Source: Saccharopolyspora elongata
GTDB lineage: Bacteria; Actinomycetota; Actinomycetes; Mycobacteriales; Pseudonocardiaceae
DNA length: 64,000 bases
Assembly: GCF_004348985.1 (NCBI RefSeq)
Contig: NZ_SMKW01000023.1
Location: 1 to 64,000, forward strand
Reading direction: 5' to 3'
The notes under the pieces are model-generated. The model ran no database searches and was not told where the DNA came from. It worked only from the letters and a program-made list of their open reading frames with translations. This document shows positions 46,945 through 61,987 of this stretch, in pieces. Every line of letters begins with the position of its first letter. The first letter of the stretch is position 1. The position numbers and the translations under genes were made by a program.

Positions 46945-46977
46945 GAAGCCCGCCGCCCCGGAGGGACGGCGGGCTTC
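46945..46977 (-). terminator. Terminator of the methyl-cycle cluster
   Basis: GAAGCCCGCCG (46945-46955) and CGGCGGGCTTC (46967-46977) form a perfect 11-bp stem with an 11-base loop, 13 bases past the metF stop on the minus strand. Confidence 0.75.
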
Positions 46978-46990
46978 GACGGCTCGGACG

Positions 46991-47884
46991 TCAGGCGGCT
47001 TTCAGCACGCCGTCGGCCAGTCCGAGGTTGGCCACCACCTCGCGGGTGGCCTTGGCCCGGTTGAGGCTGTAGAAGTGCAGCGCCGGCACGCCTTCGGCGA
47101 TCAGCTTCTCGCACAGCCGGGTGGTGATCTCCAGCCCGGCCGCCCGGAAGCCGGCCGCGTCGTCGCGCAGCGGGTCCAGCGCCGCCGACACCTCGTCCGG
47201 GATCGTCATGTTGCTCAGCTGCGTGGTCATGCCCAGCACCCGCGGCGTGGTGATCGGCATGATCCCCGGCAGCAGCGGCTGGTCGCAGCCGTGCTGCGCC
47301 AGCCGGTCCCGCAGCCGCAGGAAGTACTCCGGCTCCAGGAACATCTGCGCCACCGAGAAGTCCGCCCCGGCCCGCAGCTTGTTGACCATGTGCCGGGTGT
47401 CGGACTCCAGGTCCACCGAGCGCGGGTGCAGGTGCGGGAACGCCGCGACGCCCACGCTGAAGTCACCGCACTCGCGCACCAGCCGCACGAGCTCGTCGGC
47501 GTAGGTGATGCCCTCCGGGTGCGGGATCCACTCGCCCATCGGGTCGCCCGGCGGGTCGCCGCGGATCGCCAGCACGTTGGTGATGCCCTCGGCCGCGTAC
47601 GAGCCGATGACGTGCCGCAGTTCGGCGATCGAGTGGTTCACGCCGGTCAGGTGCGCCACCGGCAGCAGGGTGGTGTCGCCCGCGATCCGGCCGGTGGTGC
47701 GCACGGTGCGGTCCCGGCTGGACCCGCCGGCCCCGTAGGTCACCGACACGTACGCGGGGTCCAGCGGCTCCAGTTCCCGGATGGCCCGCCACAGCTGGCG
47801 TTCCTCCTCGTCGGTCTTCGCGGGGAAGAACTCCACCGAGAACACCGTCTTGCCGGGGCGCAGCCGGTCTATGACCCGAGTCAT
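46991..47884 (-). CDS. metF: Methylenetetrahydrofolate reductase
   Basis: The 297-aa protein has the MetF TIM-barrel pattern: SVEFFPAKTDEEE near the N-terminus, PAYVSVTYGAGGSSRDRT, NVLAIRGDPPGDP, GADFSVAQMFLEPEYF and PGIMPITTPRVL, then LHFYSLNRA at the C-terminus. It reduces 5,10-methylene-THF to 5-methyl-THF, the methyl donor for MetH two genes upstream in the same run. It is the last gene of the cluster, 31 bp after ahcY, with a terminator following. The reductant is NADH or reduced flavin; the bacterial single-domain form is as expected. Confidence 0.95.
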   Translation of the reverse strand: MTRVIDRLRPGKTVFSVEFFPAKTDEEERQLWRAIRELEPLDPAYVSVTYGAGGSSRDRTVRTTGRIAGDTTLLPVAHLTGVNHSIAELRHVIGSYAAEGITNVLAIRGDPPGDPMGEWIPHPEGITYADELVRLVRECGDFSVGVAAFPHLHPRSVDLESDTRHMVNKLRAGADFSVAQMFLEPEYFLRLRDRLAQHGCDQPLLPGIMPITTPRVLGMTTQLSNMTIPDEVSAALDPLRDDAAGFRAAGLEITTRLCEKLIAEGVPALHFYSLNRAKATREVVANLGLADGVLKAA

Positions 47885-47915
47885 GGCCTGGTCTCCTTCT
47901 CAGCCGAGAAATCGA

Positions 47916-49376
47916 TCAGTAGCGGTAGTGGTCGGGCTTGTACGGGCCGTTGACGTCGACGCCGATGTAGGCGGCCTGCTCCTTGGTGAGCTTGGTCAGC
48001 TTCACGCCCAGCGCATCCAGGTGCAGCCGCGCGACCTTCTCGTCCAGGTGCTTCGGCAGCACGTACACCTGCTTCTCGTACTCGCCCGGCTTGGTGAACA
48101 GCTCGATCTGGGCGATCGTCTGGTTGGTGAAGGAGTTCGACATCACGAAGCTCGGGTGCCCGGTCGCGTTGCCCAGGTTCAGCAGACGGCCCTCCGACAG
48201 CACGATGATCGAGTGCCCATCCTCGAACACGTACTCGTGGACCTGCGGCTTGATCTCCTGCTTGCGGACGCCCGGCACCTTCTCCAGGCCCGCCATGTCG
48301 ATCTCGTTGTCGAAGTGACCGATGTTGCCCACGATCGCCTGGTGCTTCATCCGCGTCATGTGCTCGGCGGTGATGATGTTGAAGTTGCCGGTGGTGGTGA
48401 CGAAGATGTCCGCGGTCTCCACGACGTCTTCCAGGGTGGTGACCTGGTAGCCGTCCATCGCCGCCTGCAGCGCGCAGATCGGGTCGACCTCGGTGACGAT
48501 CACCCGGGCGCCCTGGCCGCGCAGCGATTCCGCCGAGCCCTTGCCGACGTCGCCGTAGCCGCAGACGACCGCGACCTTGCCGCCGATGAGCACGTCGGTG
48601 GCCCGGTTGATGCCGTCGATCAACGAGTGCCGGCAACCGTACTTGTTGTCGAACTTCGACTTGGTGACCGAGTCGTTGACGTTGATCGCGGGGAACAGCA
48701 GGTCCCCGGTCTTGGCCAGCTCGTACAGGCGGTGCACGCCGGTGGTGGTCTCCTCGGTGACGCCCTTGATCTCACCGGCGATCTTGGTGAACCGCTGGCC
48801 GTTCCGGGCGATGCTGGCGCGCAGGGTCTCCAGGATGACCTTGTACTCCTCCGGGTCGTCCTCGCCCGGCTGCGGCACCGCGCCCGCGGCCTCGAACTCG
48901 ACGCCCTTGTGCACCAACAACGTGGCGTCGCCACCATCGTCGAGGATCATGTTCGGACCCTGGCCATCACCGAACTGGAACAACTGGTCGGTGCACCACC
49001 AGTACTCCTCCAGCGACTCACCCTTCCACGCGAACACCGGCACACCCGCAGGCGCCTCCGGCGTCCCGTTCGGGCCCACCACGACCGCCGCCGCAGCCTC
49101 ATCCTGCGTCGAGAAAATGTTGCACGACACCCACCGGACCTCCGCGCCCAACGCGACCAAGGTCTCGATCAACACAGCCGTCTGCACCGTCATGTGCAAC
49201 GAACCCGCAACCCGCGCACCCTTCAACGGCTGCGAATCCGCGTACTCCTCGCGAGTCGCCATCAGGCCCGGCATCTCGTGCTCGGCCAACCGGATCTGAT
49301 GCCGCCCGGCCTCGGCCAACGACAAATCCCGGACAGCGAACTCAAGGCCGCCTGCCTTCTGCAACTTGACGCTCAT
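47916..49376 (-). CDS. ahcY: S-adenosylhomocysteine hydrolase
   Basis: The 486-aa protein has the NAD loop [23 protein letters not shown] about residues 266-288, [13 protein letters not shown], the [16 protein letters not shown] segment and the C-terminal YKPDHYRY that reaches into the partner's NAD site. It splits SAH to adenosine and homocysteine, relieving product inhibition of methyltransferases. Its length and inserts match the long actinobacterial form. The first 150 or so codons prefer TTG for leucine and G/T-ending codons (nine or more TTG), while the rest uses CTG/CTC, a visible break in codon use within one gene. It is 48 bp downstream of metH. Confidence 0.97.
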
Positions 49377-49424
49377 GGTTTCCCTTCTCGATTTCCCATG
49401 CGGTTGCGGTGTCTTGCGGGTGGA

Positions 49425-52400
49425 TCAGGTGTTGAAGTACTTCGCCTCGGGGTGGTGGGCGATGATCGCGTCGGTGGACTGCTCGGGGTGCAGCTGGAAC
49501 TCCTCCGAGAGCACCACGCCGATGCGCTCGGCCTCCAGCAGGTCGACGATCTTGGCCCGGTCCTCGATGTCCGGGCAGGCGCCGTAGCCGAAGGAGTACC
49601 GCGCGCCGCGGTAGCCGAGCTTGAAGAACTCCTGCACGTCGGCCGGGTCCTCCTCGGCCACCGAACCGCCGGCGGCCCAGAGGAGCTCCCGCCGGACGCG
49701 GCGGTGCCAGTACTCGGCCAGCGCCTCGGTGAGCTGCACGCCCATGCCGTGCACCTCCAGGTAGTCCCGGTAGGCGTTCTTGGCGAACAGCTCGTTGGCG
49801 TAGTCGGCGATCGGCTGGCCCATGGTGACCAGCTGCACCGGCAGCACGTCCACCTGGCCGGTCCTCTCGGCCTGCTCGCGCGTCCGGAAGAAGTCCGCCA
49901 GGCACAGCCGCCGGTCGCGCTTCTGCCGCGGGAAGAAGAACCGGTGCCGCTCCTGGGCGTCCGGCTCGTCCTTGTCCAGCACCACGAGGTGGTTTCCCTC
50001 GGTCACGCAAGGGAAGTAGCCGTAGACGACGGCGGCGTGCTGCAGGATGCCCGCGGTGGAAAGCTCGTCGATCCAGTGGCGCAGCCGCGGCCGGCCCTCG
50101 GATTCGACGAGTTCCTCGTAGGACGGCCCCTCGCCCTTCTTCGCGCCGCGCAGGCCCCACTGGCCGAAGAACGTGGCCCGCTCGTCCAGCAGCGCCAGGT
50201 AGTCGGCGACCGCGACGCCCTTGACCACCTTCGAGCCCCAGAACGGCGGCGTCGGCACCGGCGCTTCGGCGTCCACATCGGACCGCGTGGTGTCGGTGTA
50301 CTCCGGCTCGGGTCCCTGCTCCGCCTTGCGCTTCTCGGCGATGCGCATCGACCGCTCGCGGCGAGCCTTGCGCTCGGCTTTCTTCGCCTGCTCGGCCGCG
50401 TCTTCGGCAGGCGCGTCACCGCGCTTGACGGACATGATGCGGTCCATCAGGTGCAGGCCTTCGAAGGCGTCCTTCGCATAACGCACATCGCCCTGGTAGA
50501 CCTCGTCCAGGTCGTTCTCCACATAGGACCTGGTGAGCGCCGCCCCACCCAGCATCACCGGGTACTTCTCGGACATTCCCCTGGAGTTGAGCTCCTCCAG
50601 GTTCTCCTTCATGATCACGGTCGACTTCACCAGCAGGCCGGACATGCCGATGGCGTCGACCTTGTGCTCCTCGGCAGCGTCCAGGATGGCGTTGATCGGC
50701 TGTTTGATGCCGATGTTGACCACGTCGTAGCCGTTGTTGGACACGATGATGTCGACGAGGTTCTTGCCGATGTCGTGCACATCGCCCTTGACCGTGGCCA
50801 GCAGCAGCTTGCCCTTGCCGCCGGAGTCGTCCTTCTCCATGTGCGGTTCGAGGCAGGCGACAGCGGCCTTCATGACCTCGGCGGACTGCAGCACGAACGG
50901 CAGCTGCATCTGCCCGGAGCCGAACAGCTCACCGACGACCTTCATGCCGGCCAGCAGGTTCTCGTTGACGATGTCGAGCGGCTTCTTCTCCTTCATCGCC
51001 TCGTCGAGGTCCGCCTCCAGGCCGTTGCGCTCGCCATCGACGATCCGCCGCTCCAGCCGCTCGAACAGCGGCAGCTTCGCCAGTTCCTCGGCACGCGAAG
51101 CGCTGCTGGACTTCGCGGTCTTGCCTTCGAAGAGCTCCATCAGCTTCTGCAGCGGGTCGTAGCCCTCGCGGCGCCGGTCGTAGACCAGGTCGAGCGCGAC
51201 CTCCCGCTGCTCGTCCTGGATCTTGTTCATCGGCAGGATCTTCGAAGCGTTCAGGATCGCGGTGTCCAGGCCCGCTTCCCGGCATTCGTTGAGGAACACC
51301 GAGTTCAGCACCTGCCGTGCCGCCGGGTTGAGCCCGAACGAGACGTTGGACAGGCCGAGCGTGGTCTGGACGTCCGGATGGCGCTTCTTGAGCTCCCGGA
51401 TCGCGTTGATCGTCTCGATGGCGTCCTTGCGGACCTCTTCCTGGCCGGTGGTGATCGGGAAGACCAGGCAGTCGATGATGATCGCGGACTTCTCCAGACC
51501 CCAGTTGGTGGTCATGTCCTCGATCAGCCGTTCGGCGACCCGCAGCTTCCACTCGGCGGTGCGCGCCTGGCCTTCCTCGTCGATGCAGGTCACCACCACG
51601 GTGGCACCGTGTTCGACGACGAGCTTCATCACGCGCTCGTACCGCGAGCCCGGTTCGTGACCGTCCTCGTAGTTCACCGAGTTGACCGCGCACCGGCCGC
51701 CCAGGTGATCCAGGCCGGCCTCGATCACGTCCGGCTCCGTGGAGTCCACCATGATCGGCAGGGTCGAGGAGGTGGCCAGGCGCGACGCCAGCTCCCGCAT
51801 GTCGACCGTGCCGTCGCGGCCGACGTAGTCCACGCACAGGTCCAGCATGTGGGCGCCTTCGCGCGTCTGGGACTTGGCGATCTCCACGCAGTCGTCGTAA
51901 CGGCCTTCCAGCATCGCCTCGCGGAACGCCTTGGAACCGTTGGTGTTCGTGCGCTCGCCGATGTTGAGGATCGACGCGTCCTGTTCGAACGGCACCGCCT
52001 GGTACACCGACGAGATCGACGGGATGTGCTCCGGCTCGCGCACCTTCGGCGCCAGCGGCGCGACCGCCTCGGCCACGGCGCGCACGTGCTCGGTGGTGGT
52101 GCCGCAGCAGCCGCCGACCAGCCGGGCGCCGAAGTCGTTGACGAACCCGACCAGCGCCTCGGCCAGCTCGTCGGGCTGCAGCGGGTACACCGCGCCGTTG
52201 GGGCCGAGCTGGGGCAGACCAGCGTTGGGCATCACCGAGATCGGGATCCGGGAGTTCTGCGCCAGCACCCGCAGGTGCTCGCTCATCTCCGCCGGGCCGG
52301 TCGCGCAGTTCATCCCGATCAGGTCGATGCCCAGCGGCTCCAGCGCGGTCAGCGCTGCGCCGATCTCCGAGCCGACCAGCATCGTGCCGGTGGTCTCCAC

Positions 52401-52991
52401 CGTGACCTGCGCGATGATCGGCAGCCACCGGCCGGTCTGGGCCATCGCCCGCTTCGCCGCCACGATCGCGGCCTTGGTCTGCAACAGGTCCTGGGAGGTC
52501 TCCACCAGCACCACGTCGATGCCGCCGTCGAGCATGCCCAGCACCTGCTCGACGTAGGCGTCGCGCAGCACGGAGTAAGGCGCGTGGCCCAGCGTCGGCA
52601 GCTTCGTGCCCGGGCCGACCGAACCGAGCACGAACCGCGGCCGTTCCGGCGTCGAGTACTCGTCGGCGGCTTCGCGGGCCAGCGCCGAGCCCGTCTCCGC
52701 CAGCTCCCGGATCCGCTCCGGGATGTCGTACTCGCCGAGGTTCGCCAGGTTCGCGCCGAAGGTGTTGGTCTCGATCGCGTCCGAGCCCGCCTCCAGGTAG
52801 CCCCGGTAGATCGAGGACACCACGTCGGGCCGCGTGACGTTCAGGATCTCGTTGCAGCCCTCCAGGTTGGCGAAGTCGTCCAACGTCAGGTCGAACGCCT
52901 GCAGCGCGGTACCCATGCCGCCATCGGCGACGAGGACCCGCTCGCCGAGGGCGGTCAGGAACCCGCTCGGATCGTTCTGCCGGTCTGCCAT
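49425..52991 (-). CDS. metH: Cobalamin-dependent methionine synthase
   Basis: The 1188-aa protein has all four modules in order. Homocysteine-binding domain, about 10-320, with zinc ligands in GGCCGTTTEHV. Pterin-binding domain, about 340-600, from NIGERTNTNGSKAF. Cobalamin domain, about 640-890, with the B12 His in VKGDVHDIGKNLV about 737-745 and IGMSGLLVKST. C-terminal SAM-reactivation domain ending in FGYGACPDIEDRAKIV and HHPEAKYF. It transfers the methyl of 5-methyl-THF to homocysteine. It starts 19 bp after adoK. No cobalamin riboswitch is visible in that short gap, consistent with transcription from further upstream. Confidence 0.97.
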   Translation of the reverse strand: MADRQNDPSGFLTALGERVLVADGGMGTALQAFDLTLDDFANLEGCNEILNVTRPDVVSSIYRGYLEAGSDAIETNTFGANLANLGEYDIPERIRELAETGSALAREAADEYSTPERPRFVLGSVGPGTKLPTLGHAPYSVLRDAYVEQVLGMLDGGIDVVLVETSQDLLQTKAAIVAAKRAMAQTGRWLPIIAQVTVETTGTMLVGSEIGAALTALEPLGIDLIGMNCATGPAEMSEHLRVLAQNSRIPISVMPNAGLPQLGPNGAVYPLQPDELAEALVGFVNDFGARLVGGCCGTTTEHVRAVAEAVAPLAPKVREPEHIPSISSVYQAVPFEQDASILNIGERTNTNGSKAFREAMLEGRYDDCVEIAKSQTREGAHMLDLCVDYVGRDGTVDMRELASRLATSSTLPIMVDSTEPDVIEAGLDHLGGRCAVNSVNYEDGHEPGSRYERVMKLVVEHGATVVVTCIDEEGQARTAEWKLRVAERLIEDMTTNWGLEKSAIIIDCLVFPITTGQEEVRKDAIETINAIRELKKRHPDVQTTLGLSNVSFGLNPAARQVLNSVFLNECREAGLDTAILNASKILPMNKIQDEQREVALDLVYDRRREGYDPLQKLMELFEGKTAKSSSASRAEELAKLPLFERLERRIVDGERNGLEADLDEAMKEKKPLDIVNENLLAGMKVVGELFGSGQMQLPFVLQSAEVMKAAVACLEPHMEKDDSGGKGKLLLATVKGDVHDIGKNLVDIIVSNNGYDVVNIGIKQPINAILDAAEEHKVDAIGMSGLLVKSTVIMKENLEELNSRGMSEKYPVMLGGAALTRSYVENDLDEVYQGDVRYAKDAFEGLHLMDRIMSVKRGDAPAEDAAEQAKKAERKARRERSMRIAEKRKAEQGPEPEYTDTTRSDVDAEAPVPTPPFWGSKVVKGVAVADYLALLDERATFFGQWGLRGAKKGEGPSYEELVESEGRPRLRHWIDELSTAGILQHAAVVYGYFPCVTEGNHLVVLDKDEPDAQERHRFFFPRQKRDRRLCLADFFRTREQAERTGQVDVLPVQLVTMGQPIADYANELFAKNAYRDYLEVHGMGVQLTEALAEYWHRRVRRELLWAAGGSVAEEDPADVQEFFKLGYRGARYSFGYGACPDIEDRAKIVDLLEAERIGVVLSEEFQLHPEQSTDAIIAHHPEAKYFNT

Positions 52992-53010
52992 CCCCTGCTA
53001 CTCCCCGTTC

Positions 53011-53985
53011 TCAGCCGAGCTTCGACTGGACCTCGGCCGCGGCGGCGTCACCGTACGCCTCGGCGATGCGCGCGACGAACGAGTCGCGCTCCACCTGGTA
53101 CTCCTGCGGACCGTCGGTCTCCAGCGAGACGGTCGCCAACGTGCAGCCCAGCTGCAGCGAACGCTCCAGGTCGAGGTCGTGGTACAGCCCCGCGAGGAAC
53201 CCGCTGCGCAGCGCGTCGCCGACGCCGGTCGGGTCGCCCTTCTGCTTCTCCTTCGGCGGCGCGACCTCGATGGTCGGCTCCGACTTGGACTCCACCTGCA
53301 CGCCCTTCGGGCCCAGCGAGGTCGCCCAGAGGCCGACGCGTTCCAGCACGTCGGCGTGCGTCCAGCCGGTGCTCTGCAGCAGCAGGCCGTGCTCGTACTC
53401 GTTGGTGAAGAGGTATTCCGCGCCCTCGACGAGCCGGCGGATCTCCTCGCCCTCCATCCGGGCCAGCTGCTGGCCCGGGTCGGCGACGAACCGGTAGCCG
53501 CGGTCCCGGCACTCCTCGGTGTGCCGCACCATCGCCGCCGGGTCGTTGGGCGAGATCACCACCACGTCGAGGCCGCCCAGCCGGTCGGCGACCGGCTTGA
53601 GCTCGATCTCGCGGGCCTCGGCCATCGCCCCGGCGTAGAAGGACGCGATCTGGTTGTGGTCGGTGTCGGTGGTGCAGATGAACCGCGCGGTGTGCTTGGT
53701 GTCGGAGACGTACACCGACGAGGTGTCCACCCCGTGGCGCTCCAGCCACCCGCGGTACTCGTCGAAGTCCTGGCCGACGGCGCCGACGAGGGCCGAGCCG
53801 ACGCCCAGCTGGCCGAGGCCGAAGGTGATGTTGGCCGCGATGCCGCCGCGCCGCACCTCCAGGTCGTCGACCAGGAACGACAACGACACCTGGTGGAGCC
53901 GATCCGCGACGAGCTGATCGGTGAACCTACCGGGATAGGACATCAGGTGGTCGGTGGCGATCGAACCGGTCACCGCAATCCGCAC
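53011..53985 (-). CDS. adoK: Adenosine kinase, actinobacterial PfkB type
   Basis: The 324-aa PfkB-family kinase begins MRIAVTGSIATDHLMSYPGRF and continues with HQVSLSFLVDDLEVRRGG, closely following the mycobacterial adenosine kinase pattern. The catalytic Asp and anion hole are in GDPTGVGDALRSGFLAG about residues 253-269. TDTDHNQIASFYAGAM is the typical substrate-lid region. It phosphorylates adenosine to AMP, pulling the reversible AhcY reaction forward. Its position between metK and metH supports that role and argues against ribokinase or other PfkB specificities. Confidence 0.9.
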   Translation of the reverse strand: MRIAVTGSIATDHLMSYPGRFTDQLVADRLHQVSLSFLVDDLEVRRGGIAANITFGLGQLGVGSALVGAVGQDFDEYRGWLERHGVDTSSVYVSDTKHTARFICTTDTDHNQIASFYAGAMAEAREIELKPVADRLGGLDVVVISPNDPAAMVRHTEECRDRGYRFVADPGQQLARMEGEEIRRLVEGAEYLFTNEYEHGLLLQSTGWTHADVLERVGLWATSLGPKGVQVESKSEPTIEVAPPKEKQKGDPTGVGDALRSGFLAGLYHDLDLERSLQLGCTLATVSLETDGPQEYQVERDSFVARIAEAYGDAAAAEVQSKLG

Positions 53986-54127
53986 TGCTCTACTCCTTCA
54001 CCAGGGCCGGCCGCCGCTGCGGCGCCGACCTTTGAAGCTCCATTGGACCCCGTCGCCGCTCACACCGGACCGCGGGGCGCGATCGGCGCGCCCCGCAGTC
54101 TGCCGCCACGACTCTCGAAGGTCGACG

Positions 54128-55330
54128 TCAGATACCGGCGGCGCTCTTCAGCGCCTCAGCCCGGTCGGTGCGCTCCCAGGGCAGGTCGACGTCACTGCGC
54201 CCGAAGTGACCGTACGCTGCCGTCTGGGCGTAGATCGGCCGCAAGAGGTCCAGGTCACGCACGATGGCGGCGGGCCGCAGGTCGAAGACCTCGTTGATCG
54301 CGGCCTGGATCTTCACCGGGTCGACGTTCTCGGTGCCGAAGGTCTCGACGAACAGGCCCACCGGCGCGGCCTTGCCGATCGCGTAGGCGACCTGCACCTC
54401 GATGCGGCTGGCCAGGCCCGCGGCGATGGCGTTCTTGGCCACCCAGCGCATCGCGTAGGCAGCCGAGCGGTCCACCTTCGACGGGTCCTTGCCGGAGAAG
54501 GCGCCGCCGCCGTGGCGGGCCATGCCGCCGTAGGTGTCGACGATGATCTTCCGGCCGGTCAGGCCCGCGTCGCCCATCGGGCCACCCACCACGAACCGGC
54601 CGGTCGGGTTCACCAGCAGCCGGGTGTCGCCGGAGTCCAGGCCGACCCGCTCGATCTCCGGGTCGATGACCTTCGCCTTGATGTCGCCCGCCAGCATGCC
54701 CTCGAGGTCGATGTCGGCGGCGTGCTGCGTGGACAGCACCACGGTGTCCAGGCGCACCGGCTGGTCACCGGCGTACTCGATGGTCACCTGCGTCTTGCCG
54801 TCCGGCCGCAGGTACGGCAACACCCCGTCCTTGCGGACCCGGGTCAGCCGCCGCGACAACCGGTGCGCCAGCGCGATCGGCAGCGGCATCAGCTCGTCGG
54901 TGTCGGTGCAGGCGTAGCCGAACATCAGGCCCTGGTCGCCGGCGCCCTGCTTGGCGATCTCGTCGATGACGCCCTCGACGCGGGACTCGTGCGCGTCGTC
55001 GACGCCCTGCGCGATGTCCGGCGACTGGGAGCCGATGGCGACGTTCACACCGCAGGAGGCACCGTCGAAGCCCTTGGCGGAGGAGTCGTAGCCGATCTCC
55101 AGGATCTTCTCCCGCACGATCGTCGGGATGTCCGCGTAAGCGTCGGTGGTCACCTCACCGGCCACGTGCACCTGGCCGGTGGTCACCAGCGTCTCCACCG
55201 CCACCCGCGACCGCGGGTCCTGGGACAACAACGCGTCCAACACAGCGTCGCTGATCGCATCGCAGATCTTGTCCGGGTGCCCCTCGGTCACCGACTCACT
55301 GGTGAACAACCTGCGGTTGATCTCACTCAC
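54128..55330 (-). CDS. metK: S-adenosylmethionine synthetase
   Basis: The 400-aa protein contains [25 protein letters not shown] at the N-terminus, the ATP/methionine motif [12 protein letters not shown] about residues 127-138 and [20 protein letters not shown] about 275-294, all diagnostic of MetK. It makes SAM from methionine and ATP. GTG or ATG context at 55330 with GAGGTGAGGAG upstream gives a good RBS. It is 142 bp before adoK and 296 bp after the betaine methyltransferase, the gap being occupied by the 185-bp dispersed element. Several leucines near the start use TTG, as in the ahcY N-terminus. Confidence 0.97.
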
Positions 55331-55408
55331 GACTGCTCCTCACCTCACAGCTGATGCAGCACTGATCCTTGCGTACGGTAGTGACGTTTTCCAGAGGGGG
55401 TCTCAGCT

Positions 55409-55593
55409 GACTGTTTCCAGACTCGTCTTGCGTGGCGGTGCCGGTAGCGGAACCTCACACGCCGCCTGGACTCCGGGATCCCCGACTTGTGTATGACCAA
55501 TACACGGCGTCCGGGCTGTCCTCGCCAGACGACGTCTGAGAACCCGCGGCGGTGCCAGTGGCGTGCGTGGGCTAAGCGGCTGCGCCGCTTCAA
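55409..55593. repeat. Dispersed structured element, copy B
   Basis: 185 bp aligned with 34822-35005 in the same absolute orientation, about three quarters identical by eye. It lies between the methyltransferase stop and metK, beginning 33 bases after that stop when read on the minus strand. The 17-bp stem pairs 55454-55469 with 55525-55540. Two stem positions differ from copy A on both sides so that pairing is kept (C-G to G-C, and G-C to A-T), and two C.A pairs become G.U in minus-strand RNA. Confidence 0.8.
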
Positions 55594-55626
55594 GGACAAC
55601 GACCAATCCCATCTCCGGCATCGTTC

Positions 55627-57330
55627 TCAGGCGCGGGCGTGGATGATGCCCCAGGAGAGGTTGCCCGCCTTGCCACCTGCGACCCAGTTCTTCAGACCCG
55701 TCTTCATCTTGGCGCGGTATTCGTCGCTGATCCGGTCCGCCAGCTCCGCTTCCCGGCTCTCGAGTACGTCTAGAACGCGCCCATAGTGCACGGCTAGGAA
55801 CTCGGTCAGGTCCTCGAAGTCGAAGTTCTGCAGGCCGAGGCGGGCCAGCTCGCGGCGGTAGAAGCCGGGCGAGCCCATCGTCTCCAGGTTCAGCCGGTCC
55901 AGGATCGGCCCGAGGTCCTTCGACTTTGCGCCGTCCGCGGCCATCGGGTCGGTGAAGATGAAGGAGCCGCCGCCCTTGAGCACCCGGGACACCTCCTCCA
56001 GGACCCGCTCCCGGTCGCCGCTGTGCAGGATCGCGTCCTGCGACCAGACGATGTCGAAGGCGTTGTCCTGGAACGGGATGTCCTCGAAGGAACCGTCCTT
56101 GACCTCGATCAGCTCGTCCAGCCCCGCGGCCCGGGTGAACTCGAGGTTCCGGGCGTTCTCGACCTCGCTGAGGTTCAGGCAGGACACCTTGCAGCCGTAG
56201 GTCTCGGCGAGGTGGCGGGCCGCGCCGCCGTAGCCGGAGCCGATGTCCAGGATGCGGGTGTCCGGGGTGATCTCGACCTTGTCGGCCATCCGCTCCACGG
56301 TGCGGCGTGAGGCGCTGTCGATGTCCTCGTCCGGGGTCTGGTAGATGCCGACGTGAATGTCGTTGCCGCCCCAGACGTGGTAGTAGAAGTTGTCCGCGTC
56401 CTCGGAATTGTAGTAATCCCGCGCGGTGTGCACCGCGGTCGAGTACACGTCGGAGAGCTCTTCGTCCGGCCGGTACTTCTTCTCCGCCACGTGGATGAAG
56501 AAGTCGGGTTCGGCGTCGTGGTAGGTCTCCTGGAAATCGCCGTAGGTGTCGATCCGCTGGAAGCCGACTTCGCGCATGAGCCGCCGCGTGTAGTTCTTCC
56601 GCAGCGGGTACATGTTCAAGAAGAATTCAGATTTGTCCGGGAACGTGTACTTGAAGCGCGCCAGGCCCTCGTCGACGTAATCGGGCTCCGCGGAAACGTC
56701 CTCGCCGGCGTAGTAGTAGGTGTGCTTCGACGAGAATCCGTTGTCCAGAATCGAGTCGTAATTTCGTTGATCGATGATCAGCACGCCGTCGTGCTTGAGC
56801 ATCGCGTAGAACTCGGCGAGGGCTTTGCGCCGATCTCGTTCGGAGAACAGGTGCGTGAAGGAGTTGCCGAGGCAGATGATCGCGTCGTACTCGCCGTGGA
56901 CGTCACGATTCAGCCAGCGCCAGTCGGCGTGCACCACGCGGAGGATGTGGCCGCCGTAGGTCAGTCCGTTGCTGAACGCCTTGGCCAGCATCTGCGGGCT
57001 GCCGTCGGCGCTGACCGCGTCGAAGCCCTCCTCCAGCAGCCGCACGGAGTGGAAGCCGGTGCCGGTGGCGACGTCGAGCACCGAGCGGACGCCACGGGCC
57101 TTGAGCTGGTCGATGAAGAACGAGCCCTCGCTCTGGTAGCGCTTCTTCCAGTCGATCAGCTCGTCCCACTTCTCGACGAAACCGCCGACGTACTCGTACG
57201 TGTAGTGGTCAGATTCGCGCACTTCCAACGGGTTCTCGCCGAACACCTGCTCCTCGCGCGCCACCAGACCAGCGGTGTCCTGAGATCCGGGCTGCTCACT
57301 CGAAGCAAGATCGTCCACGCTCTTCGCCAT
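55627..57330 (-). CDS. Fused glycine-sarcosine / sarcosine-dimethylglycine N-methyltransferase (glycine betaine synthesis)
   Basis: The 567-aa protein has two SAM methyltransferase halves. Residues about 1-290 form the GSMT half, with motif I SVLDVATGTGFHS about 83-95 and the VHADWRWLNRDVHGEYDAIICLGNSFTHLF segment. Residues about 291-567 form the SDMT half, with motif I RILDIGSGYGGAARHL about 359-374 and WSQDAILHSGDRERVLEEVSRVLKGGG. Together they methylate glycine three times to glycine betaine, an osmolyte. Most organisms with this pathway use two genes; the fused form and its length match the halophilic actinomycete enzyme. ATG 57330 starts MAKSVDD. It heads the run of SAM-cycle genes. The protein is acid-rich, consistent with salt adaptation. 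Confidence 0.95.
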   Translation of the reverse strand: MAKSVDDLASSEQPGSQDTAGLVAREEQVFGENPLEVRESDHYTYEYVGGFVEKWDELIDWKKRYQSEGSFFIDQLKARGVRSVLDVATGTGFHSVRLLEEGFDAVSADGSPQMLAKAFSNGLTYGGHILRVVHADWRWLNRDVHGEYDAIICLGNSFTHLFSERDRRKALAEFYAMLKHDGVLIIDQRNYDSILDNGFSSKHTYYYAGEDVSAEPDYVDEGLARFKYTFPDKSEFFLNMYPLRKNYTRRLMREVGFQRIDTYGDFQETYHDAEPDFFIHVAEKKYRPDEELSDVYSTAVHTARDYYNSEDADNFYYHVWGGNDIHVGIYQTPDEDIDSASRRTVERMADKVEITPDTRILDIGSGYGGAARHLAETYGCKVSCLNLSEVENARNLEFTRAAGLDELIEVKDGSFEDIPFQDNAFDIVWSQDAILHSGDRERVLEEVSRVLKGGGSFIFTDPMAADGAKSKDLGPILDRLNLETMGSPGFYRRELARLGLQNFDFEDLTEFLAVHYGRVLDVLESREAELADRISDEYRAKMKTGLKNWVAGGKAGNLSWGIIHARA

Positions 57331-57451
57331 TCTTCACTCCCACCACTCACGTTGGTCATGCGCCACCGCAGAACTCGGGGCCGCGCAAATCCGTGCCCCG
57401 AGCTCGTCTCGTGGCCGTGTCGGGTCGCCACTGCGAAAAAAGGCAACGCCC

Positions 57452-57476
57452 GTACCGGCGTGGGCAGCCGAGAAAC
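57452..57476 (-). promoter_or_regulatory. Stress-sigma (SigB-like) promoter candidate for the betaine cluster
   Basis: On the minus strand GTTT (57476-57473) is followed after 15 bases by CGGTAC (57457-57452). Actinobacterial SigB/SigF-type promoters, used under osmotic stress, have GTTT then 14-16 bases then GGGTA(T/C). One mismatch is present. It would give a 5' leader of about 115 nt. Inference only. Confidence 0.35.
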
Positions 57477-57508
57477 GCTCAAGGCCGCAACACCTACGCC
57501 GATCACTT

Positions 57509-57532
57509 CCGGTCGGCACCCTCGCCGACCGG
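57509..57532 (-). promoter_or_regulatory. Hairpin upstream of the betaine methyltransferase
   Basis: CCGGTCGGC (57509-57517) and GCCGACCGG (57524-57532) form a perfect 9-bp stem with a 6-base loop. Further upstream GGTTA-AC-TAACC (57556-57567) is a palindrome of operator size. Both lie 180-240 bases before the start codon and may take part in osmotic control. No SAM or SAH riboswitch fold was recognised here. Confidence 0.4.
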
Positions 57533-57569
57533 CCCTGACGCGATATTCCTGCGTCGGTTAACTAACCTA

Positions 57570-58073
57570 GGCGAAGGAGATCGCAAAGCAAGCGTACGAA
57601 CGTGTGACGCTAATCACCGGAATACGATGAATGCGTGATTTCCACTGTCACCCTGGGTGAATAAATGCGCTGCCACCTGCGCCGATTCGGCGCATTTCGA
57701 GGGACGCAACGATCACGCGAGTGCAGAATGTCAGCGATCTGTGTATACTGACGCCCGCTTTGCCTTACCACAACAACTGCAAATTACACAACCGCGATTC
57801 CCGTCAAAATTATGAAGACTGGGCAGCGTGGCGGTTGACTTTTTCTCTTTTCATTGAGTTCATCGCGGCGCGGAGCACAGATGTTACGGTGCCCACCTCA
57901 CGCATGCGAGCCATTTTTCCGCGCCGGACCCGGCCCCCGGCCGCCGCCCTCCCCCATCAGGCATGCTTCACGCTCCCCCCGCCCGGGACGATCGGCGGAA
58001 GGTTCCTCGCCGCATCGGCCCTGGGGAAGTGTGGCACGCGCCCCCGAGGCGTGCCACCGCAGCAACGCCCGGC
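57570..58073. other. A/T-richer intergenic region, no gene recognised
   Basis: About 500 bp between the upstream region of the betaine methyltransferase and the acyl-CoA synthetase stop. The part from 57640 to 57900 is markedly richer in A/T than its surroundings and contains promoter-like words (TATACT near 57747, TTGACT near 57836). A plus-strand frame runs through it, but with poor codon bias and no RBS. It may contain the distal control region of the betaine cluster or a decayed gene. Confidence 0.45.
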
Positions 58074-61925: not shown

Positions 61926-61987
61926 GCGCGATTTCGCGAGAAATCGACCGTCACCCGGGTGAACGTCGATTTCTCGCGGAATCGCGC
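61926..61987. repeat. Long hairpin between GH2 and epimerase genes
   Basis: Arms of 23 bp, 61926-61948 and 61965-61987, differ at one position. The left arm starts GCGCGATTTCGCGAGAAA. The loop contains the palindrome TCACCCGGGTGA. It ends seven bases before the AGGAGG of the epimerase gene, so it could terminate read-through or limit translation. The core resembles 6183-6204. Confidence 0.7.

Follow-up and report, generated by a model that had tools for sequence, protein, structure and literature searches.

The window is a 64,000-nucleotide stretch of Saccharopolyspora elongata DNA (contig NZ_SMKW01000023.1, positions 1 to 64,000). Between positions 46991 and 57330 the list of its open reading frames contains six genes on the minus strand, in the order GSMT-SDMT fusion, MetK, adenosine kinase, MetH, AhcY and MetF. 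The gaps along the cluster, calculated from the ORF coordinates, are 296, 142, 19, 48 and 31 bp.

55627..57330, minus strand: GSMT-SDMT fusion, N-terminal half glycine/sarcosine N-methyltransferase, C-terminal half sarcosine/dimethylglycine N-methyltransferase (profile and structure matches)
54128..55330, minus strand: metK, SAM synthetase, cluster copy (profile match)
53011..53985, minus strand: adoK, adenosine kinase (profile and structure matches)
49425..52991, minus strand: metH, cobalamin-dependent methionine synthase (profile match)
47916..49376, minus strand: ahcY, S-adenosylhomocysteine hydrolase (profile match and tree)
46991..47884, minus strand: metF, methylenetetrahydrofolate reductase (profile match)

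The identities of the genes were established by homology. The GSMT domain scored 487 bits with NF051855, above the curated cut-off of 350, and this half matched structures 5h02 and 5gwx at 411-412 bits. The C-terminal half gave a full-length domain match to the SDMT model NF041675 at 379 bits, under its 550-bit cut-off, and scored 245 bits against 2o57, a putative SDMT. MetK (TIGR01034, 549 bits, cut-off 309), MetH (TIGR02082, 1498 bits, cut-off 1011) and AhcY (TIGR00936, 642 bits, cut-off 498) were assigned by their profiles; MetF reached 295 bits with PF02219 (cut-off 24) and 283 bits with TIGR00676, slightly below the cut-off of 294. No NCBIfam model scored above its cut-off for the adoK product and Pfam returned only 'PfkB family'. 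Residues 1-321 gave a full-length match, at 381 bits, to the adenosine kinase structures 4o1g and 2pkf, which we take to be from Mycobacterium tuberculosis; the next structure group after the adenosine kinases followed at 172 bits. The six genes named in the first-pass annotation, with gaps of 19-296 bp and an adenosine kinase inside the cluster, were thus all recovered.

By the established roles of these enzyme families, the GSMT-SDMT enzyme consumes three SAM per betaine and MetK makes SAM. AhcY splits SAH, a product inhibitor, and is pulled forward by AdoK and MetH, which take away adenosine and homocysteine; MetF gives methyl-tetrahydrofolate to MetH. Judged from its gene content, the cluster is almost certainly a metabolic module for the formation of glycine betaine from glycine.

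Clusters of this type have been described. Table 4 of Imhoff et al. 2020 (PMC7824335) gives fusedMT-MAT-o-MS-SAHase-MTHFR for Actinopolyspora halophila, which is the same fused gene with the same neighbours, order and strand as found here. If the unnamed 'o' is read as another gene, it corresponds to the position of adoK. The A. halophila row names no adenosine kinase, and a leader RNA, an operator and an internal hairpin go unmentioned in the accessible part of that paper. Halorhodospira likewise carries betaine methyltransferases with SAM-cycle genes: the cluster GMT-DMT-MAT-SAHase-MTHFR, for which co-location was argued to supply methyl groups and remove SAH (PMC7824335), and gsmT, sdmT and metK2 in H. 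halochloris (PMC8092242). Unlike the present cluster, the Halorhodospira entry has two separate methyltransferase genes, a methionine synthase located elsewhere and no adenosine kinase listed (PMC7824335). A fused methyltransferase with four SAM-cycle enzymes also occurs in Roseivivax roseus and Roseovarius nitratireducens (fusedMT-MTHFR-MS-MAT-SAHase; PMC7824335), in another gene order and another phylum and, as tabulated, with no adenosine kinase listed. In Methanohalophilus portucalensis SAM synthetase and SAH hydrolase adjoin the betaine methyltransferases as well (sams-sahh-gsmt-sdmt; PMC3176816), but this cluster is archaeal, its methyltransferase genes are separate, and methionine synthase, MTHFR and adenosine kinase are absent from the 3.9-kb fragment reported. 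On the evidence of these sources the cluster and its metabolic rationale are already in print, and the gene cluster alone is a further member of a published kind.

Conservation of the gene order in relatives, on which the first-pass annotation had made its reading depend, was looked for and found. Among the best 80 of at least 561 confirmed GSMT loci in named genomes, metK lies next to GSMT in the same orientation at 36, and 26 have metK-adoK-metH-ahcY, 10 of these also with metF; several of the shorter clusters stop at a contig edge. The order recurs in relatives from Saccharopolyspora, Actinopolyspora, Prauserella, Saccharomonospora and Jiangella, whereas the ~10 kb seen at GSMT-SDMT in Streptomyces and Nocardiopsis lack these genes. 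Most cluster AhcYs of Pseudonocardiaceae and Actinopolyspora group together in a single clade (100/100), which is separate from the AhcYs of family members that lack GSMT. The cluster AhcYs of Tamaricihabitans, Haloechinothrix alba, Gandjariella and the Jiangellaceae fall outside it; the second AhcY of the present genome, encoded on contig C171, falls inside although it is not a cluster gene. The DNA of the two own ahcY copies is 95-100% identical over much of the gene but drops to about 80% in one part, and the flanks are unrelated, a pattern that might reflect gene conversion; the tree joins the two copies only weakly (90/57).

The cluster could also be the housekeeping SAM cycle of the cell, merely joined by the betaine gene and not a dedicated module. 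This would agree with the gene counts in some relatives: the only strong ahcY, metH and metF are the cluster ones in four genomes of an Actinopolyspora-like genus (G062, G180, G196, G104) and in a Saccharomonospora (G174), the cluster adoK is the sole strong one in 8 of the 17 cluster-bearing genomes searched, the present one included, and metK-adoK-ahcY or metK-ahcY occurs without GSMT in G138 and G083. In this genome, on the other hand, strong matches number two for metK, four for ahcY, three for metH and two for metF, the second metK (G000:C248) encoding a protein 93% identical to the cluster MetK; the operator-like element and the leader described below, moreover, are located before GSMT-SDMT. 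We regard the housekeeping reading as somewhat unlikely and retain that of a dedicated betaine module.

Whether the six genes form one unit depends on three further features.

55411..55599, minus strand: copy of a ~190-bp dispersed repeat between GSMT-SDMT and metK (genome search)
54068..54100, minus strand: GC-rich 14-bp stem in the metK-adoK gap, resembling a terminator or processing site but lacking a U-run (fold prediction)
46945..46977, minus strand: GC-rich 15-bp hairpin after metF, terminator-like, no U-run (fold prediction)

The repeat has at least 40 matches in this genome, this copy included, and the same gap in the closest relative (G584) is 75 bp. A metK-adoK stem of −35 kcal/mol or lower was present at all 29 leader-bearing loci measured. 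In gaps at least 50 nt long, the most stable 50-nt segment reached −35 kcal/mol or lower in 36 of 48 metK-adoK gaps, as against 6 of 37 metH-ahcY and 6 of 54 SDMT-metK gaps, and was below −20 in 40 of 48, 18 of 37 and 16 of 54, respectively; the metK-adoK signal could be due in part to gap length and G+C. The eight metK-adoK gaps in which no stem fell below −20 all come from outside the leader-bearing group. Where the gap is long, as in a few loci that carry the leader (L177, L283, L284 and L290), the best stem differs in sequence. Because of the metK-adoK stem and the dispersed repeat, the cluster is probably not one uniform six-gene unit. The earlier proposal of a self-sufficient module in one unit is supported for the methylation module and only in part for the unit: a strong hairpin separates GSMT-SDMT-metK from adoK-metH-ahcY-metF, the repeat occupies the GSMT-SDMT-metK gap in this strain, and metK, metH, ahcY and metF each occur again elsewhere in the genome. 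After metF, where a terminator had been proposed, a hairpin is predicted, with −39.2 kcal/mol for a 56-nt stretch and none of 200 shuffles as low; it lacks a U-run, and the terminator scan of the window, which requires a T-run, did not list it.

Upstream of the fusion gene, comparison with relatives revealed conserved elements.

57633..57653, minus strand: operator-like element GGGTGA-N9-TCACGC, shared with relatives (upstream-region comparison)
57564..57591, minus strand: candidate promoter, TTGCTT (57586-57591), 16-nt spacer, TAGGTT (57564-57569) (read by eye from alignments)
57331..57556, minus strand: conserved structured leader RNA, ~225 nt, directly 5' of GSMT-SDMT (alignment of relatives)
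57551-57555/57537-57541, minus strand: leader helix P1
57524-57531/57510-57517, minus strand: leader helix P2
57496-57503/57454-57461, minus strand: leader helix P3, which encloses P4
57483-57488/57464-57469, minus strand: leader helix P4
57411-57417/57340-57346, minus strand: long-range leader helix adjoining and partly covering the putative Shine-Dalgarno region

The helices were taken from alignment columns, with coordinates assigned by hand. The operator-like element is common to two cluster-bearing groups. Where metK is present, 26 of 37 upstream regions contain it (the window included), and where metK is missing, 0 of 44 do, counts that are descriptive and not an independent test because the motif was picked by eye from those regions. 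Its three other exact occurrences in the genome all lie inside called ORFs, so no operator regulon was found. The promoter hexamers were judged against the general consensus, and a strict sigma-70 scan of the window returned no promoter; transcription would start directly before P1.

Of 390 family genomes, 43 contain strong matches to a model of the leader, R1 (57415-57556), at 44 places in total; these score at least 103 bits, and the next best match 32 bits. In its own genus 21 of 22 genomes were hit. Each of the 44 places immediately precedes a GSMT start, and SDMT was seen to follow except in one case that is cut off by the contig end. R1 had no match at the Prauserella, Saccharomonospora, Amycolatopsis and Jiangella loci, the best match elsewhere being at 19.7 bits (E 0.44), so the module as such does not require the leader.

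The evidence for RNA structure consists of cell counts in related sequences. In a MAFFT alignment of 38 distinct leaders, pairing was kept in 98.2% of 1589 cells and in 31-38% when the structure was slid, a difference owed in part to the fact that these alignments had also supplied the structure. Both sides were changed in 32 cells, compared with 10.9 ± 2.7 in shuffles; for the first 19 leaders pairing was 97.5% and the count 27, compared with 9.2 ± 2.2. Paired cells, double-changed cells and score were above all 500 shuffles. Counted by base pairs, double changes numbered 8 against 4.8 ± 1.2 in the first 19 leaders (4 of 500 shuffles as high) and 6 against 5.2 in all 38 (210 of 500 as high); pair types in the 38 did not exceed the shuffles (200 of 500 as high), and P4 was never changed on both sides. 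Compensatory change is thus suggestive rather than decisive. The single-strand fold of the window leader was mildly more stable than shuffles (z −2.07). In all 10 comparisons conservation was higher in the leader (59-88%) than at four-fold degenerate sites of the gene that follows (50-79%), and the stretch 250-450 nt further up was 31-69% conserved.

The 150 nt immediately upstream of the leader, where the operator-like element is located, are 55-87% conserved, about the level of the leader itself, and part of the conservation may therefore act at the DNA level. Together with the confinement of the leader to one lineage and the double changes by pairs on 38 rows, this would fit an ordinary betaine/SAM-cycle operon under a conserved promoter, its 5' region serving DNA-level control (regulator sites, promoter, strong ribosome-binding site) and RNA folding being incidental. 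The retained pairing, the excess of double-changed cells and conservation that runs for ~225 nt from the putative start to the ATG speak against such an operon, which we think rather improbable. The leader is instead probably a functional cis-acting RNA.

As to how this RNA might work, translational attenuation by an upstream ORF appears quite unlikely. Such an ORF (MTN(V/A)SGGSE..., with ATG or TTG) starts 26-29 nt before the gene and overlaps or abuts the GSMT-SDMT start. Its start codon and the beginning of its peptide occur in all 18 leaders checked, of 38 distinct ones; Actinopolyspora has a TTG and an early stop that leave a 7-residue ORF, and in one relative the start lies one codon later, in frame. 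The length (7 to over 130 codons) and the frame relation to the gene (1 or 2) vary among species, however, and the putative Shine-Dalgarno sequence lies in this stretch and could by itself account for its conservation. A terminator within the leader was also weighed and rejected as a shared mechanism: in the window only a weak 5-bp stem precedes the T-run, and Actinopolyspora and others have no such T-run. Since the U-run near the 3' part, present in most Saccharopolyspora leaders, is absent from the Actinopolyspora ones, transcription attenuation is not the shared mechanism. Action of the leader through the ribosome-binding site, as modeled from the long-range helix, is a tentative reading with a near-even prospect.

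No known riboswitch class accounts for the leader, as no described covariance model in Rfam fits at gathering or permissive thresholds. The SAM/SAH and other riboswitches of Rfam 15 would likewise be leaders before SAM-cycle genes; neither these nor any other Rfam family matches the window leader at E ≤ 10. Loci of seven relatives, searched up to E 5, returned matches to only five families (snoRNA, miRNA and the like), none of which reached the gathering score. A leader RNA of GSMT genes was not found among the listed titles and abstract starts of the open-licence literature, which does not imply its absence from print overall. The leader could not be matched to a described family, and leader and operator-like element are what appears new at this locus. 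It is conceivable, though on balance improbable, that in Saccharopolyspora, Actinopolyspora and close relatives the leader represents a new class of riboswitch or of ion- or osmotic-responsive RNA, which senses a pathway signal (the ratio of SAM to SAH, glycine, betaine or ionic strength) and thereby frees the ribosome-binding site of GSMT-SDMT.

Taken together, a betaine module controlled at its front by operator and leader and split after metK is the likely arrangement. Expression would most likely be set at the front, by the operator-like element and then the ~225-nt leader RNA. The leader would fold into its conserved helices and partly pair with the GSMT-SDMT ribosome-binding region, such that the committed methyltransferase is made only once the leader is released. 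The hairpin after metK would split output between a GSMT-SDMT-metK part and an adoK-metH-ahcY-metF part. In this scheme we infer osmotic induction, the promoter, the switching step and the role of the metK-adoK stem.

Assigning an adenosine kinase to the position left unnamed in the published cluster makes the branch for SAH removal complete. The published accounts, in their accessible parts, are silent on how actinobacteria set the output of a pathway that costs three SAM per betaine. A single-copy conserved leader before the committed enzyme and a shared operator-like element offer two testable handles on this control, and actinobacteria with the SAM-recycling cluster form a natural comparison with Streptomyces and Nocardiopsis, in which GSMT-SDMT stands apart. 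If the leader were indeed a riboswitch or osmotic-responsive RNA, osmolyte synthesis and methyl-donor regeneration would be switched together.

The six open reading frames of the cluster (46991-57330, minus strand) lie where the first-pass annotation had placed them, and their coordinates give intergenic gaps of 296, 142, 19, 48 and 31 bp, in agreement with its range of 19-296 bp. GSMT, MetK, MetH and AhcY each exceeded the cut-off of curated models. MetF gave a clear Pfam match and scored slightly below the NCBIfam cut-off, the SDMT half of the fusion matched an NCBIfam model without passing its cut-off, and AdoK passed no NCBIfam cut-off. The fourth gene was placed as an adenosine kinase by its full-length similarity to adenosine kinase structures. 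A hairpin is indeed present after metF, where a terminator had been proposed, but it lacks a U-run. An upstream AMP-binding gene and a GH2 gene are common to the window and Actinopolyspora mortivallis.

In a sample of 200 genomes from the order, GSMT exceeded its cut-off in 10, and every one of these belongs to the same family as the window. The gene order was surveyed in named genomes using the best 80 of at least 561 confirmed GSMT loci, a set outside which more distant GSMTs fall; here the window GSMT was closest to that of S. spinosa (95%). In this set metK followed GSMT in the same orientation at 36 loci. The run metK-adoK-metH-ahcY-metF was present at 10 of these 36, metK-adoK-metH-ahcY with metF absent from the available flank at 16, and a run reaching only metH at three, while at two (L163, L172) ahcY came straight after adoK without metH. 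The remaining five carried metK alone; in four the contig ends within about 3.2 kb, and in the fifth, S. kobensis, the other genes are on a separate contig that ends inside metK. SDMT without any SAM-cycle gene occurred at 40 of the 80 loci (the contig being too short in at least three, L168, L199 and L210), and neither SDMT nor SAM-cycle genes at three, including one truncated locus. The last locus has, on the opposite strand, a weak match resembling metH. On the GSMT tree the presence of metK required 7 changes, versus 27.0 in shuffles.

Several variant arrangements were observed. The metH slot in Haloechinothrix halophila (L191:14134-17709) holds a MetH only 31% identical, which suggests replacement in place. 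Five genomes of Nocardiopsis, Actinomadura, Streptomonospora and Murinocardiopsis (L228-L232), in which GSMT-SDMT is separate from the SAM-cycle genes, have two tandem ahcY genes, the second 37-40% identical to the window ahcY. Loci L138, L139 and L140 show a stand-alone second GSMT in genomes also carrying the fused gene.

The window is on contig 147 of a 10.3 Mb assembly of 277 contigs. This genome contains two strong matches for metK, four above the cut-off for ahcY, three for metH, and two full-length plus one weak match for metF, so the module is a second set there, with the exception of adoK (one strong match; two others below 36 bits). Among 17 cluster-bearing genomes searched, the cluster adoK is the sole strong copy in eight, including this genome and its close relative G584, and a second strong copy of 58-63% identity occurs in nine. 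In five genomes (G062, G180, G196, G104, G174) the sole strong ahcY, metH and metF are all in the cluster and metK also occurs elsewhere. The second ahcY of S. elongata (L133:6316-7773) has 95-100% DNA identity to the window gene (47916-49376) over much of its length, with a mid-gene dip to about 80% and unrelated flanks, a pattern that may reflect either recent duplication or gene conversion. Outside the window, G000:C253:14877-36670 holds five AhcY homologues in 22 kb, with similarity falling from 578 to 70 bits, arranged as in a biosynthetic cluster.

Features upstream of GSMT-SDMT and metK
57633-57653, minus strand: operator-like element, GGGTGA-N9-TCACGC
57331-57556, minus strand: candidate leader RNA; model R1 covers 57415-57556
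57411-57417 with 57340-57346: six-pair leader helix that adjoins and partly covers the GGUGGGAG ribosome site; 97.8% of its cells are paired
55411-55599: dispersed repeat of about 190 bp; 39 other listed places are 81-96% identical to this copy

Among 12 Saccharopolyspora the upstream regions show a close alignment. Leader model R1 was built from the first 142 leader positions. It was searched against 390 family genomes under stricter filtering, at the cost of some weak matches, and gave 44 strong places in 43 genomes, the next best scoring at most 32 bits. Counting the window, the positive genomes include 21 of the 22 in its own genus, with another 10 from genus g5 and 12 from five further genera; among 397 genomes sampled from the order, none outside the family exceeded 29 bits. 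All 44 strong places directly precede a GSMT start, and SDMT follows in every case except G581, where the contig ends. R1 was further applied to the window together with 78 other loci, of which 64 came from the 65 named loci that had not contributed to the model (L159 was omitted) and 14 were others; the window was the sole match, the next scoring 19.7 bits. In G569:C2:1382626-1387997 (L290) there are two copies of leader plus GSMT-SDMT, inverted relative to each other and separated by about 5 kb, which reflects either real duplication or assembly error.

The consensus fold of 19 leaders (Saccharopolyspora, Halosaccharopolyspora, Halopolyspora and five Actinopolyspora-group sequences) had an energy of -55.97 kcal/mol. 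Over the 43 pairs counted, 97.5% of cells were paired; 27 cells were double-changed versus 9.2 ± 2.2 in shuffles, and double changes fell in 8 pairs versus 4.8 ± 1.2. For an overlapping set of 38 distinct leaders aligned with MAFFT, 98.2% of cells were paired and 32 were double-changed versus 10.9 ± 2.7; the number of pairs with double changes was not above shuffles. Leader conservation exceeded that of four-fold sites in 10 of 10 comparisons. Because single-base insertions and deletions occur across the leader, its sequence argues against a coding stretch. The window had no Rfam match, and the loci of seven relatives, searched up to an E-value of 5, gave only five snoRNA, miRNA and similar families, all below threshold. 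We found no published description of this RNA; its function and any ligand it may have are matters that we infer.

The operator-like motif was picked by eye from these same GSMT upstream regions. In the 600 nt preceding GSMT, GGGTGA-N(8 to 11)-TCACGC is present at 26 of the 37 metK-carrying loci, the window among them, and at none of the 44 lacking metK; it turns up just two further times in the 3.07 Mb of both strands of the same loci. Carriers are Saccharopolyspora, Halosaccharopolyspora and the Prauserella/Saccharomonospora/Amycolatopsis group; the exact motif is missing at the Actinopolyspora, Halopolyspora, Jiangellaceae, Tamaricihabitans, Gandjariella and Haloechinothrix alba loci. The window holds a single exact match, and seven with at most one mismatch versus 0.96 expected. 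Two one-mismatch sites lie back to back in opposite orientation at 61936-61977, between a GH2 gene and an aldose-epimerase gene.

The cluster had been read as one six-gene unit for SAM regeneration and betaine synthesis. The 296-bp gap before metK contains the dispersed repeat (40 listed matches in this genome, window copy included); in G584, the closest relative, this gap is 75 bp. A metK-adoK stem of -35 to -49 kcal/mol was present at all 29 leader-bearing loci measured; these include the window, and a few are one genome counted under two handles. Among the other gaps of the cluster, stems of -35 kcal/mol or lower were found in 6 of 37 metH-ahcY gaps and 6 of 54 SDMT-metK gaps of at least 50 nt. 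The repeat before metK and the stem common to leader-bearing loci favour a cluster of two coupled parts over a single uniform unit, with the stem as only a putative terminator.

The gene cluster itself is confirmed as a further example of a published type. PMC7824335 lists the A. halophila cluster, in which MAT is followed by an unnamed 'o', and argues for Halorhodospira that such clustering supplies methyl groups and removes SAH. The arrangement sams-sahh-gsmt-sdmt is described in Methanohalophilus (PMC3176816), and H. halochloris gsmT, sdmT and metK2 were put to use (PMC8092242). The GSMT protein is described as subject to betaine feedback (PMC5146677), so enzyme-level control also exists. 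Three further papers (PMC8777070, PMC12143400 and PMC3149565) contributed no additional points. Apparently new beyond the published cluster are the candidate leader RNA and the shared operator-like element, which render regulation of the module testable.
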